Shown: piece after piece, positions 5,492 to 26,460 of the stretch | How the letters are laid out: each line of letters begins with the position of its first letter | Position numbering within the stretch: position 1 is the stretch's first letter | Notes under the pieces: model-generated | The model's database searches: none | Seen by the model: only the letters and a program-made list of their open reading frames with translations | Told to the model about the DNA's origin: nothing | Origin: an uncultured Bacilli bacterium | Lineage (GTDB): Bacteria > Bacillota_I > Bacilli_A > RFN20 > CAG-826 | Length of the DNA: 32,321 nt | Direction of reading: 5' to 3' | Assembly (NCBI GenBank): GCA_905236395.1 | Contig: CAJOPR010000075.1 | Span: 1 to 32,321 of the forward strand | Position numbers and translations under genes: made by a program

Positions 5492-6757
5492 TTATATATT
5501 ATCTAATTCTTTTTTGATTCCGGTTTTATCAAGATTTTGTCCAATGAAGACTAATTTGATTAATTTATCTCCATATTTCTCATCCCAGTCATGAGCGAAA
5601 TTCTCGTCATTATCAATGAGATATTGGATTTGTTTCTTGGTTAATTTACCACTGTACCATTCACCAGTTTTATTAAGTTTTCTCTGATGACCAGCGGATT
5701 CATAGACATAGGCATATTTCTCTTCTTCTTTGAAGTAGAGAATACCTTTCGCTCTAATGATATTTCTACCATTTTGTTCCACCCATTCCATGAATTTTTG
5801 CTTTGCAAATGGTCTTCTTCTGTAATAGACAAAGGTATTGATATTGTATTCATCAGCGGTACCTTCATCATCATTTTCATCCATGCCATTTTCATGGTGG
5901 TGGTGATGATGGTGATGGTGGTGTTCATGCTCTTCATGTTCATGATGGTGATGATGTTCGTGTTCATCTTCATCGTCATCATCGTCATCTTCATCATGAT
6001 CTTCATCCGCATCAACTTCGTTAGACCAGTCTTCAAATTCTCTAATCCAAGCAGCAGAAGTGCTGGCTTCTTCAAACTTGAATAAGTGAGTGTCGATCAT
6101 CTCATCGACATCGACTTCACAATAGTCGGATTCAATAATCTTGGCCTTTGGTTGAATCGCTTTAACTGCGATTTTTACTTTTCTTAATTCCTCTTCAGAG
6201 ATATCACTTACCTTATTTAAGATAACGATGTCACAGAATTCGATTTGCTGGATGATAAGATTTTCTAAATCTTCTTCCCCTCTAACTGTGTCTTTGAAGA
6301 CATCGCCACAGTTGAATTCGTCTCTTAATCTAAGAGCGTCTGTCACAGAGATAACTGCATCTAATGTATAGAAGATTGGTAAGTGTTGTTTCTTGAATTC
6401 TTCTTCCATATAGCAGATGGTCTGTGCGATAGGCACTGGCTCACAGATGCCTGAAGCTTCGATTAAGATGTGATCAAACTTCTGAGACTCCACTAAATCA
6501 GCGAGTTGTTTAATTAAATCTTTCTTTAACGTGCAGCAGATACATCCGTTTTGAAGGGCCACTAGCGAATCATCTTTAGATGAGACAACTCCACCTTGTT
6601 GTATTAGTTCGGCATCGATGTTCACTTCACCGATATCATTAACGATGACCGCCATACGGTGGCCTTTAGCGTTTTTTAAGATATGATTAAGAAGTGTGGT
6701 TTTGCCACTTCCTAAGTATCCGGTAATTAAGGTAATTGGGACGGTTTTGATATTCAT
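5492..6757 (-). CDS. CobW/ZNG1-type GTPase metallochaperone with Asp/His-rich insert
   Basis: A 421-residue G3E GTPase of the COG0523 family. Walker A is GYLGSGKTT (13-21), the metal-binding CxCC is at 72-75 (GCICCT), Walker B lies in LIEASG (98-103), and NKVSD is near 181. Residues 247-299 are a very acidic and His-rich stretch, including a run of ten His (279-288), between the GTPase and the C-terminal CobW domain (about 304-415). These proteins use GTP hydrolysis to load zinc or other metals onto clients, and His-rich inserts bind the metal. It is the first gene of a minus-strand operon with the zinc-ribbon membrane protein. The ribosome site is GGAG. A palindrome lies over the promoter. 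The metal cannot be told from the sequence. Confidence 0.88.
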   Translation of the reverse strand: MNIKTVPITLITGYLGSGKTTLLNHILKNAKGHRMAVIVNDIGEVNIDAELIQQGGVVSSKDDSLVALQNGCICCTLKKDLIKQLADLVESQKFDHILIEASGICEPVPIAQTICYMEEEFKKQHLPIFYTLDAVISVTDALRLRDEFNCGDVFKDTVRGEEDLENLIIQQIEFCDIVILNKVSDISEEELRKVKIAVKAIQPKAKIIESDYCEVDVDEMIDTHLFKFEEASTSAAWIREFEDWSNEVDADEDHDEDDDDDDEDEHEHHHHHEHEEHEHHHHHHHHHHENGMDENDDEGTADEYNINTFVYYRRRPFAKQKFMEWVEQNGRNIIRAKGILYFKEEEKYAYVYESAGHQRKLNKTGEWYSGKLTKKQIQYLIDNDENFAHDWDEKYGDKLIKLVFIGQNLDKTGIKKELDNI

Positions 6758-22568: not shown

Positions 22569-22574
22569 AGTTTT

Positions 22575-22773
22575 AGCCGTTGAAAAAGAGGAGTAACTAA
22601 TACTTCTATTATAGAGAGTCGAGGATGGTGGAAGCTCGACATAGGGGATTAGCGAAGGTCGCTTTGGAGGATAGTTGCCTAGCGAAAATAGGTTAATGAA
22701 GTGCGCTAGAAATAGCGAACTAAGGTGGTACCGCGCTTAAAGAGCGTCCTTAGACAGGGACGCTTTTATTTTT
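22575..22773 (+). promoter_or_regulatory. T-box leader riboswitch (tRNA-Val sensing)
   Basis: Shows the T-box sequence AAGGTGGTACCGCG (22722-22735) and, in stem I, the GAGAGTC and GATGGTGG distal-loop elements. The probable specifier GTC (22658-22660, valine) precedes GCTTTGG. The terminator stem is AGCGTCC (22743-22749) with GGACGCT (22758-22764), then TTTATTTTT. Uncharged tRNA-Val would pair with the specifier and T-box and prevent termination. Followed by AGGAGG and the valS ATG. Confidence 0.92.
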
Positions 22774-22787
22774 AGGAGGATTTACCT

Positions 22788-25382
22788 ATGTTAGATAAGA
22801 GATATGATCCACACAAAGTGGAAGAAGGAAAGTATGAAAATTGGAAGCAAAAAGGATATTTCACCGCGGGTGATAAATCCAAACAAGCTTTCTCTATGGT
22901 CATCCCTCCTCCAAATGTCACAGGTAAATTGCATATCGGTCATACATGTCAGACCACAATTCAAGATATCGTTGCTAGATATAAAAAGATGCAAGGATAT
23001 GATGTCTTATGGCTCCCAGGTATGGACCACGCTGGTATTGCCACTCAAGCGAAAGTTATGGAGAAACTCCGTAATAACGGAGTGGATGTCACAAAGATCA
23101 CTCGTGAAGAATTCCTAAAGGCCGCTTGGGGATGGAAAGATGAATACGCTGAAAACATCCATTCTCAATGGGCGAAAATGGGTCTTGCTTTAGATTACAC
23201 TAGGGAGAGATTTACGCTTGATGAAGGGCTCAATTATGCGGTGAGAACCGTATTTGTGTCTTTATACAATAAAGGATTAATTTATCAAGGTGAGAGAATC
23301 ATCAATTGGGATCCAGTTCAGATGACCGCTTTAAGTAATATTGAAGTCATCCACCAAGATGACCCTGGACAGATGTTCTACTTCAGATATCCAGTCGTGG
23401 GAACTGATGATGCTTTAATCGTTGCCACAACAAGACCAGAAACCATGTTCGGCGATGTCTGTGTGGTTGTTAATCCAAAAGATAAGAGATATTCCAAATA
23501 TGTTGGAAAGAAGGTTATCAATCCCGCGAATCATGAAGAACTTCCAATCATCGCTGATGAATACGTTGATATCAGTTTTGGAACTGGCGCGATGAAATGT
23601 ACACCAGCTCACGATCCTAACGACTTTATCATCGGTGAGAAATATGGTTTTCCAAAACCAATCATCTTCAACAAGAATGCCACAATGAATGAATTATGTG
23701 GCAAGTATGAAGGTTTAGATCGTTTTGAATGTCGTAAAGTCCTCGTAGAGGATATTAAGAAAGATGGCAATTTCGTGAAGATTGAAAATATCGTTCACCC
23801 AGTTGGCCATAGTGAAAGAAGCCATTGCGTAGTGGAACCAATGCTTTCCAAACAATGGTTTGTGAAGATGCGTCCTTTAGCGGATCAAGCCTTAGCTAAT
23901 CAAAAAGGTGACGGCAAAGTAGAATTTGTTCCAAAGAGATTTGAACATACATTTATCCAATGGATGGAAAATGCTGAAGACTGGTGTATTTCTCGTCAGT
24001 TGTGGTGGGGTCATAGAATTCCTGCTTATTACAATAAGCAAACTGGCGAAGTCTTAGTCAGTATGGATCCTCCAAAAGATATGGAGAATTGGGAACAAGA
24101 AAGCGATGTTCTCGATACCTGGTTCTCATCTGCCTTATGGCCATTCTCCACATTAGGCTGGCCTAATAAGACTGAAGACTTTGAAAGATACTTCCCAACT
24201 GACACGATGGTTACAGCCTATGACATCATCTTCTTCTGGGTGTCTCGTATGATTTTCCAATCCTTGGAGATGAATCACGTGAGACCGTTCAAAGAAGTGG
24301 TGATCCACGGTTTGGTGAGAGATGAGTTAGGCAGAAAGATGTCTAAGTCTCTCGGTAACGGTGTCGATCCAATTGAAGTTATCGATAAGTATGGTGCGGA
24401 TGCTTTGCGTTATTTCTTAACCACAAATGCAGCGCCTGGACAAGATATGAGATATATCGAAGAGAAGGTTATCGCAAGCTCCAATTATTTGAACAAGATT
24501 TGGAACTCTGCAAGATATGTCTTAAGCGTCCTTCCAGAAGGCTTCAAGGAAGAAGAAATTAACACAAAAGATTTATTTCCATTAGACCAATGGATTATCA
24601 ATCGTTTAGAGAAAACAATTAAGTCTGTGACTCTCAACATGGAGAAGTATGACTTCAACGCTGCGAGCAGTCACTTATATAACTTCGTCTATGACGATTT
24701 CTGCTCTCAATACTTAGAGATGAGTAAAGTCTCACTTTCATCAAATGATGAAAAAGTGAAGAATGTCACATATCAAGTATTATTCAGATGCTTGAAAGAT
24801 ATCATCTTATTAATTTATCCATACACTCCATTTATCGCTGAAGAGCTATATCAAAACCTCCCAGTGCATAAAGAATCCATTATGTTAGAAACATATCCTA
24901 AATATGATGCACATATGGTTCATGCTGCAGTGGATAAACAAATCGATGTGTTATTCTCCATCATCAGAGATGTCAGAAATTACAAGATTGAAAACAAACT
25001 AGCGCCTAACGCTAAGTTAGATTTATCTCTCAACTTAAGAATTAAGATGTTTGATGGATATGAAGCATATCTCAATAGATTCACTTTCAGTGATATCAAG
25101 CTAGTTGATGATTCTATCGTCAAAATGCGTGGTGAATTAAAGATCTATGATAACGCTGACTTATTAATCGTCAATGAAGCCGGTTTAGAGGACATTATCG
25201 CTAGAATCGATAAAGAAATCGCTGAGGAAGAAAACGAGATTGCTAGATGCCAAAAAATGCTCTCTAATCCTAATTTCGTGAGCAAAGCACCGAAAGAAAA
25301 AGTGGCACTTGAAGAAGAAAAACTCAAAACTCACCAAGAAAACTTAGCTTTGCTAAAAGAGAAGAAAAATAAAATAATGTAA
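22788..25382 (+). CDS. valS: Valyl-tRNA synthetase
   Basis: An 864-residue class I synthetase. HIGH is at 49-52 (GKLHIGHT), KMSKS at 517-521, with the editing (CP1) domain around TTRPETMFGD and the GTGAMKCTPAHDPND stretch. The C-terminal 70 residues are the usual coiled coil of charged helices (IARIDKEIAEEENE and on). It charges tRNA-Val and edits threonine. Expression depends on the T-box leader upstream. Ribosome site AGGAGG. Confidence 0.97.
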   Translation: MLDKRYDPHKVEEGKYENWKQKGYFTAGDKSKQAFSMVIPPPNVTGKLHIGHTCQTTIQDIVARYKKMQGYDVLWLPGMDHAGIATQAKVMEKLRNNGVDVTKITREEFLKAAWGWKDEYAENIHSQWAKMGLALDYTRERFTLDEGLNYAVRTVFVSLYNKGLIYQGERIINWDPVQMTALSNIEVIHQDDPGQMFYFRYPVVGTDDALIVATTRPETMFGDVCVVVNPKDKRYSKYVGKKVINPANHEELPIIADEYVDISFGTGAMKCTPAHDPNDFIIGEKYGFPKPIIFNKNATMNELCGKYEGLDRFECRKVLVEDIKKDGNFVKIENIVHPVGHSERSHCVVEPMLSKQWFVKMRPLADQALANQKGDGKVEFVPKRFEHTFIQWMENAEDWCISRQLWWGHRIPAYYNKQTGEVLVSMDPPKDMENWEQESDVLDTWFSSALWPFSTLGWPNKTEDFERYFPTDTMVTAYDIIFFWVSRMIFQSLEMNHVRPFKEVVIHGLVRDELGRKMSKSLGNGVDPIEVIDKYGADALRYFLTTNAAPGQDMRYIEEKVIASSNYLNKIWNSARYVLSVLPEGFKEEEINTKDLFPLDQWIINRLEKTIKSVTLNMEKYDFNAASSHLYNFVYDDFCSQYLEMSKVSLSSNDEKVKNVTYQVLFRCLKDIILLIYPYTPFIAEELYQNLPVHKESIMLETYPKYDAHMVHAAVDKQIDVLFSIIRDVRNYKIENKLAPNAKLDLSLNLRIKMFDGYEAYLNRFTFSDIKLVDDSIVKMRGELKIYDNADLLIVNEAGLEDIIARIDKEIAEEENEIARCQKMLSNPNFVSKAPKEKVALEEEKLKTHQENLALLKEKKNKIM

Positions 25383-25408
25383 ATTTTGTGCGAAAAAATC
25401 GCAATTGT

Positions 25409-25440
25409 CCCCCTTATGTATAGTGTAAGGGGGATTTTAT
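25409..25440 (+). terminator. Hairpin: valS terminator and cover of the next ribosome site
   Basis: CCCCCTTA (25409-25416) pairs with TAAGGGGG (25426-25433), 9-base loop, followed by ATTTTATT. The AAGGGGGA arm is also the only ribosome site for the ATG at 25442, 8 bases away. Confidence 0.7.
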
Positions 25441-25441
25441 T

Positions 25442-25624
25442 ATGAAATATGAAATCTTAACGAAAAACGAGTGCGATTCTCATCTAGTTGGCGAAGGAAT
25501 TACATTAGCCGCAGTGATGGCTATTGCAGCAATTGCTGTTATGGCGGTGGTGGTCTACCGTTTATTTATGTCTGGTAAAGGCACCGCAGCGATACCGGGT
25601 GGCTTTAAGTTCACTTGGGAGTAA
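25442..25624 (+). CDS. Unknown 60-residue hydrophobic peptide
   Basis: Not a family I recognise. Residues 1-18 are polar with one Cys (MKYEILTKNECDSHLVGE), residues 19-44 form one hydrophobic helix rich in Ala, Val, Ile and Met, and the tail reads SGKGTAAIPGGFKFTWE. The polar N-part followed by GEG and a hydrophobic core is reminiscent of leader-core bacteriocin peptides, but the usual GG/GA cleavage pair is not clean. It could equally be a single-span membrane protein. The start has AAGGGGGA, buried in the hairpin at 25409-25433. The next gene, radC, has its ribosome site inside this gene's last codons, so the two are one unit. Confidence 0.6.
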   Translation: MKYEILTKNECDSHLVGEGITLAAVMAIAAIAVMAVVVYRLFMSGKGTAAIPGGFKFTWE

Positions 25625-25627
25625 CCT

Positions 25628-26314
25628 TTGAGCAAGATAAAAGATTTACCAGAGCTAGATAGACCCAGAGAAAAGGCCATTAGATATGGCATAGAATCAT
25701 TATCAGATTATGAACTTCTTTCTATATTAATAGGATCGGGTTCTTTAAACTGTTCTGCGAACGATATAGCTTACGCTATGTTGAACGATCATGGAGGTCT
25801 ATCCAGCCTTATAAAAGTGCCTTATACTGAGCTACTTCATTACAAAGGAATGGGTAGCTTTAAAGCGATTAAGATTATCGCCGCTTTTGAGATTGCGAAA
25901 CGGTGTCAGGAGAAAGGAGATAATTCCATTCAAAAGATTGTTTCTCCAGAACAATTGTTTGAACGATATCGACTAAGAATTACCTCAAATTCTGACCAGG
26001 AAATCATGTATCTAGTTATCCTCAATAAAAAGAGAGAAATTATTCATGAAACAACTATATTCAAAGGCACAAAGAGTAGTGTAAATTATTCCATCCATAA
26101 TGTCATCCAAAAAGTGCTTATCAACTCTGGCAAATATTTCTATGTCATTCATAACCATCCAAGCGGAGATATCACCCCATCAAAAGATGACTTATTCTTC
26201 ACGGAAACGTTACGAAGTGAGTGTCGAAAATTTGAGATAAAACTGCTCGATCATTTGATAATATCAACCAAGGGATTTTTCTCTTTTAACGAGTCGGAAA
26301 AATACGTGTTCTAA
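25628..26314 (+). CDS. radC: RadC family JAB/MPN+ protein
   Basis: A 228-residue UPF0758 protein. The helix-hairpin-helix region is LDRPREKAIRYGIESLSDYELL and HYKGMGSFKAIKI; the JAMM metal site is HNHPSGDITPSKDD near the end, all zinc ligands kept. The C-terminus is short. Starts with TTG at 25628; GGGAG (25617-25621) lies 6 bases upstream inside the previous gene. The biochemical role of RadC is still not settled in the family, with links to DNA repair and mobile DNA. No mobile element adjoins it. Confidence 0.9.
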   Translation: MSKIKDLPELDRPREKAIRYGIESLSDYELLSILIGSGSLNCSANDIAYAMLNDHGGLSSLIKVPYTELLHYKGMGSFKAIKIIAAFEIAKRCQEKGDNSIQKIVSPEQLFERYRLRITSNSDQEIMYLVILNKKREIIHETTIFKGTKSSVNYSIHNVIQKVLINSGKYFYVIHNHPSGDITPSKDDLFFTETLRSECRKFEIKLLDHLIISTKGFFSFNESEKYVF

Positions 26315-26368: not shown

Positions 26369-26460
26369 GTTGTCGCCTCACTAGCTACAACCGCATAGAG
26401 AAGGTTCTACAAAACCTATTAAGGTTACCTTAATAGCGAGTCCTTAGTGAATCTAATTTA
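26369..26460 (+). promoter_or_regulatory. L21 ribosomal-protein leader RNA
   Basis: About 90 bases with several pairings (TATTAAGG/CCTTAATA among them) and a GTTGTCGCCTC start directly before rplU, where Firmicutes carry the L21 leader that binds L21 for autoregulation. Position and style match; fold not computed. Confidence 0.65.

Follow-up and report, generated by a model that had tools for sequence, protein, structure and literature searches.

Background

Peptides with a double-glycine (GG) leader are usually patchily distributed antimicrobials or pheromones encoded in accessory clusters. Gly-ended polar leaders are also carried by the short membrane-helix peptides known as type IV and Flp prepilins, from which they are trimmed by a membrane peptidase, prepilin peptidase. 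In substrates of C39 peptidases, the leader follows the rule L(-12)-x3-E(-8)-L(-7) before the double Gly motif (PMC6363468). Protein 0401 of JCVI-syn3A was annotated as a C39 transporter and tentatively assigned to lipoyl-lysine import, GG peptides having been found neither for it nor for the C39 proteins of other mycoplasmas (PMC6609329).

GG peptides and C39 transporters are both already known; a fixed housekeeping pair of the two with an engine-less transporter appears to be new, and no such GG-peptide/C39 pair with an ATPase-less transporter was found in the literature searched, of which coverage was incomplete. The locus described here lies in contig CAJOPR010000075.1 of an uncultured Bacilli bacterium; the whole 32,321 nt stretch that was analyzed is referred to as the window. 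Here a GG peptide is encoded by a housekeeping gene that is fixed throughout an order, and an ABC transporter retains its protease after losing its engine.

Results and discussion

A conserved small gene between valS and radC

A 60-codon ORF with an ATG start (25,442-25,624, + strand), its product ending in ...IPGGFKFTWE, is flanked upstream by valS (22,788-25,382, + strand; from the ORF list and synteny in relatives) and downstream by radC (25,628-26,314, + strand; TTG start at 25,628; PF04002, E = 7e-29; PF20582, E = 4e-22). The ribosome site of radC, GGGAG (25,617-25,621, + strand), falls within the last codons of the ORF, as originally predicted. Conservation was assessed in 58 genomes, comprising the source genome and its relatives. 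One full-length homologue per genome was found in 54 of these (43 of 47 genera and 8 families of a single order), including all 42 genomes with completeness of at least 90% and contamination of at most 5%; two additional matches were fragmentary and contained a stop. In a class-wide sample, the peptide was present in 40 of 40 members of the window's order. Within the genus, dN was 0.10–0.17 against dS of about 1.0–2.8 in most pairs, with dS near saturation, giving a dN/dS of about 0.1. A scan of public contigs with a hand-written, consensus-like query returned 41 loci in uncultured Bacilli, Erysipelotrichaceae and similar records; most of the named contigs are MAGs of uncultured Bacilli/Erysipelotrichaceae, with rumen and gut as frequent sources. 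Sequence searches of Pfam, NCBIfam and PDB yielded no family for the window peptide, and no named small protein of Pfam or NCBIfam was matched at curated cut-offs. These comparisons indicate a genuine small gene, nearly universal in an order of uncultured gut Bacilli and under purifying selection on its codons, in agreement with the original prediction of a small gene upstream of radC.

The gene order valS-peptide-radC is retained at nearly all loci of the relatives, and the homologues keep the FKFTW tail. At three loci (L036, L042 and L043) radC does not adjoin the peptide gene, which is still present. The first of these has the order valS-peptide-rplU with no radC in between, an arrangement that reads as an intermediate between the radC-linked and rplU-linked forms. 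A functional link through radC was rejected because the peptide persists where radC does not adjoin it. Elsewhere in the window, a reading of the translation at 5,492-6,757 (- strand) identified a CobW-like, metal-chaperone-type GTPase containing a long run of residues rich in His, Asp and Glu.

Leader, membrane helix and tail of the peptide

Column counts over the 54 homologues define residues 1–17 (25,442-25,492, + strand) as a GG-type leader with L-12, T-11, E-8, V-2 and G-1 and a predicted cut after G17. It is followed by a predicted membrane helix at residues 18–43 (25,493-25,570, + strand; 19-residue hydropathy up to 2.84; helix 18–43 in the AlphaFold model) and by a tail at residues 47–59 (25,580-25,618, + strand) predicted to form a beta-hairpin with a PGG turn (GTAAI-PGG-FKFTW; strands 47–51 and 55–59). 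The model has a mean pLDDT of 77.6, with the tail at about 70. In the tail, F57 is invariant and G47, P52, G53, G54 and W59 are conserved at 90% or more. The original prediction described a polar head, one hydrophobic helix and an FKFTW tail; the helix and tail were retained, and the head, which had been missed as such, appears from its residue pattern to be a double-glycine leader matching the C39 rule.

Among the 54 sequences, L-12 occurs in 44, S or T at -11 in 42, E-8 in 50 and M or L at -7 in 30; at the end of the leader, -2 is G in 26 and V in 17, G-1 occurs in 53, and the residue at +1 is E in 46. Side-by-side frames give, for example, MRELTIEEMKNLKGG followed by ELTV... in one family and MRKLSDNELNEVEGG followed by EAIT... 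in another genus. Relatives from other genera exceed the NCBIfam cut-offs for TIGR01847 (bacteriocin leader) or TIGR03949 (cerein 7B family). The -2 Gly has decayed in 28 of the 54 members and is V in the window's genus; L-12, E-8 and G-1 are still conserved in this VG group. The window's member has L-12, T-11, E-8 and G-1, but C-7, H-4 and V-2, and so follows the GG-leader rule only in part, while the family as a whole follows it. This imperfect leader, for which a VG cut is predicted, argues against reading the window's own peptide as a C39 substrate.

A hairpin over the ribosome site

A hairpin with a T-rich tract (25,405-25,441, + strand), resembling a terminator after valS, precedes the ORF. 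Its 5' arm CCCCCTTA (25,409-25,416) pairs with the 3' arm TAAGGGGG (25,426-25,433), in which lies the Shine-Dalgarno (SD) sequence AAGGGGGA (25,427-25,434, + strand). The 78 nt around the stem fold at -22.4 kcal/mol (z = -4.45), and 0 of 200 shuffles folded as well. The stem is followed by TTTTATT, and therefore scores as a terminator too. Across the relatives' loci the median fold z was -2.9, at least five of six SD bases were paired in the 3' arm at 41–42 of 54 loci, and at least five T were present in the 8 nt after the stem in 27 of 41 stems. With the upstream side shuffled, SD pairing was expected at 28.5 +/- 3.3 loci against 42 of 54 observed, and at 18.2 against 29 of 32 in the window's family; in control genes of the window it was seen in 6 of 25. 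Some families have a weak hairpin or none, and it is mostly missing in f4, f8 and some others. A small peptide with one hydrophobic helix, its ribosome site being the 3' arm of a strong, terminator-like stem, had been predicted, and is what the hydropathy, the fold and most relatives show. Compensatory change in the stem is a more qualified matter: the arms vary jointly (CCCCC/GGGGG in the window, CCTCC/GGAGG at other loci), and the pairs were chosen by folding, so that the covariation counts lean towards structure.

No known regulatory RNA was found in the hairpin by an RNA family scan of the window, the sole matches of which were a T-box and an L21 leader, and a promoter scan was at chance level; a promoter within the hairpin loop was a candidate considered by eye. 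The T-box leader (22,571-22,754; RF00230, 109.5 bits) lies before valS with a terminator-like site at 22,740-22,767; read-through into the peptide gene would therefore start from a tRNA-controlled message. The ribosomal protein L21 leader RNA (26,379-26,454; RF00559, 42.3 bits) lies between radC and rplU. The hairpin may serve both as the valS terminator and as a lid on read-through messages.

A reduced C39 transporter upstream of ybeY

In the window's genome, a C39 gene (L067:8295-9491, on G000:C55; PF03412, E = 2e-16) lies between dnaJ and ybeY. Across 20 relatives, C12 and H89 do not vary and Q6 and D105 are conserved at 90% or more; the window organism also has these residues. The protein has 398 aa and stops before the nucleotide-binding domain, ybeY following. 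Its model (pLDDT 89, pTM 0.80) gave PCAT1 and the LahT150-leader complex as best PDB matches (Foldseek against PCAT1 8vp5/6v9z, E = 1e-13). As modeled, the protein is a peptidase plus ABC membrane domain without an ATPase.

C39 was above the Pfam cut-off in 50 of the 58 genomes, usually as a single copy. Its gene typically lies upstream of ybeY in the window's order, and family f20 and Mollicutes have it at this position too. Full C39 transporters of about 680 aa occupy the ybeY locus in f20, and in Mollicutes the C39 gene at this locus has room for a full transporter. In most of the window's order the frames are about 370–450 aa. Family f2 has C39 plus one helix (171–176 aa; L074, L081 and L225), still directly before ybeY, and family f4 has the C39 domain alone (119–131 aa; L079, L223 and L224, of which L224 is still directly before ybeY). 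The peptide stays throughout this series, from a PCAT to C39 with a membrane domain, C39 with one helix and C39 alone, in which the peptidase, with its catalytic residues, appears as the conserved part of a reduced transporter.

Four genomes lack the peptide; in a full-length profile search, one of them (G008) gave a C39 fragment and three gave none; the copy in G020 is a contig-edge fragment. No convincing C39 was found in G010, G033 and G050, which are fairly complete and carry the peptide, and this counts against the pairing. A few genomes of the window's family (G012, G009 and G027; L055, L056 and L057) have an extra full-length C39 transporter of about 725 aa besides the truncated one. 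Family f17 (G247; L109 and L194) has a full C39 transporter away from ybeY, with another, different GG-leader peptide encoded some 2 kb from it; this arrangement looks like a conventional bacteriocin-type cluster.

Relatives outside the order

The group labels Erysipelotrichales-like and Mollicutes were deduced, with Mollicutes read with TGA as Trp and with the aid of public record titles. The class-wide search gave weak matches outside the order, of which 13 of 15 adjoin radC and most have a GG leader; they share the helix and tail (MKELTLQQQCEIQGGSLIATALLYLILGAAAYKIIKSKKGRISIPRLISIEWRD). Core-only hhalign against the f20 and f25 peptides, which links the window's family to peptides adjoining radC in Erysipelotrichales-like families, gave 93%, and column shuffles at most 0.1%. 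In Mollicutes, with TGA as Trp, the gene immediately before rplU encodes a GG peptide and often follows rsmI; the tails include KGSFKVG...SWDD, GEIK...YKW and SSLKW. Against the window's family the whole peptides matched at 95.5% and the cores at 10.6% (shuffles at most 0.3%); core-only homology being weak, the link to Mollicutes rests on the whole-peptide match, the tail and synteny.

In the Mollicutes family f11, the peptide is present in 51 and C39 in 50 of 60 genomes: both are present in 49 and both absent in 8, with peptide only in 2 and C39 only in 1 (Fisher p = 1.5e-7 for co-loss, genome relatedness ignored). A peptide-only Mollicutes genome, G309, has SGV where its relative has SGG, and in G337, a genome without a C39 match, GG has become GR. 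G340 (Mollicutes) is a counterexample to co-loss, its GG peptide being kept and C39 absent. G168 (f25), also without a C39 match, encodes a leaderless form of the peptide core (L101:3000-3107) that has a GGAGG site of its own, and offers a natural test of the leader's purpose. In family f22, C39 is found in 58 of 59 genomes and the peptide profile reaches 33 of 59, so divergence or other C39 substrates are possible there. The housekeeping pair spans the Erysipelotrichales-like families and probably Mollicutes.

Interpretation

The ORF is fairly likely to encode a vertically inherited, leader-processed, membrane-resident housekeeping peptide that is cut by the C39 peptidase and insulated by the hairpin from valS read-through. 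The leader would dock on the C39 cysteine peptidase, a membrane-bound protein from another locus of the genome, which would cut the precursor behind Gly17. This would leave a mature peptide of 43 residues, made up of one membrane helix and a short beta-hairpin tail, that remains in the cell envelope. The hairpin would end transcription and hide the ribosome site. The export-driving ATPase is lost from the order's peptidase, and the conserved step is therefore taken to be leader removal and not pumping; an ATPase may be supplied to the C39 carrier in trans, which counts against a reading of leader removal only.

GG leaders are typical of pheromones, the peptide gives weak matches to ComC and VP1 models, and full C39 transporters occur in f20 and Mollicutes, all of which would suit an exported ComC-like pheromone that is cut, released through a C39 carrier borrowing an ATPase and sensed by a receptor. 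This is unlikely, since no histidine kinase or response regulator adjoins the peptide gene in the window and the neighbors in relatives are valS, radC and rplU, the peptide is under strong purifying selection, its mature part is modeled as one long membrane helix, and it stays where the carrier has lost its ATPase and, in f2 and f4, also most or all of its membrane domain. The same neighbors, with no immunity gene, partner peptide or transport cluster among them, weigh against a class II bacteriocin or antimicrobial GG peptide, as do a single copy at a fixed housekeeping locus in many genera and 8 families and the strong conservation of the sequence. Despite leader-model matches to class IIb bacteriocins and a hydrophobic core, we consider this very improbable; from the bacteriocin- or toxin-like guess of the original prediction, the leader survives, with some relatives passing NCBIfam leader cut-offs, and the rest does not.

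The original prediction had also placed the peptide in a controlled unit with the JAMM-domain protein RadC. A small regulator whose translation opens the radC ribosome site, with the hairpin controlling RadC, would account for that site lying inside the ORF, for adjacency in nearly all relatives and for the covered ribosome site of the peptide. Strong amino-acid conservation, a dedicated peptidase and the persistence of the peptide away from radC (valS-peptide-rplU at L036; L042 and L043; rsmI-peptide-rplU in Mollicutes) leave such coupling scarcely any probability, and the likely partner is instead the C39 peptidase at another locus. It is doubtful, though somewhat less so than for the bacteriocin, that C39 has other main substrates and that the peptide has drifted into a membrane protein that no longer depends on a leader, particularly in the window's genus (GG to VG): the decay of GG in about half of the members and the leaderless version in C39-less G168 would fit, but the VG group keeps L-12, E-8 and G-1, and the peptide is lost together with C39 in Mollicutes. 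The peptide was also considered as pilin-like and linked to the ATPase of a type IV pilus; this was rejected because family f3 has the peptide and C39 with no T2SSE above cut-off.

For the mycoplasma C39 transporters, including JCVI-syn3A 0401, the rplU-linked GG peptide is a candidate substrate. This proposal is an alternative to lipoyl-lysine import and makes the question testable. It is an evenly balanced matter whether an ancestral housekeeping pair, a GG membrane peptide at radC/rplU and a C39 protein upstream of ybeY, runs through Mollicutes, the Erysipelotrichales-like families and the window's order, forms the substrate system so far lacking for the orphan mycoplasma transporters including 0401, and has had its transporter cut back to a mere leader peptidase in the window's order.

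Comparison with known systems

The GG-leader peptides of PCAT/AMS transporters (ComC-ComA, class II bacteriocins, LahA-LahT) share with the present system the leader grammar, a C39 domain with Q, C, H and D and, in the partner, the PCAT1-like fold of the peptidase and membrane part. The ABC membrane domain is present in the partner but lost in f2 and f4, and the ATPase is lacking in the window's order. In contrast to PCAT/AMS systems, peptide and peptidase are encoded at separate housekeeping loci and are vertically inherited, and the mature peptide combines a membrane helix with a tail predicted to form a beta-hairpin. The peptide locus has neither the adjacent kinase/regulator pair of ComC-type pheromones nor the immunity and transport genes that lie beside class II bacteriocins. 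By analogy with prepilin peptidase and its prepilins, C39 and the peptide are proposed to work likewise, a polar leader ending in Gly being trimmed; however, C39 is a cysteine peptidase and prepilin peptidase an aspartic one, the peptide has no E+5, and f3, which has the peptide and C39, has no T2SSE ATPase above cut-off. The Mollicutes C39 transporter (NF045998, Mbov_0121 family; JCVI-syn3A 0401, considered here from PMC6609329 alone) is matched weakly by the C39 part of the partner protein through NF045998, and in Mollicutes the C39 gene lies in the same place upstream of ybeY, with a GG peptide of similar tail upstream of rplU. Unlike the window's order, Mollicutes still have a protein of the transporter type at this locus.
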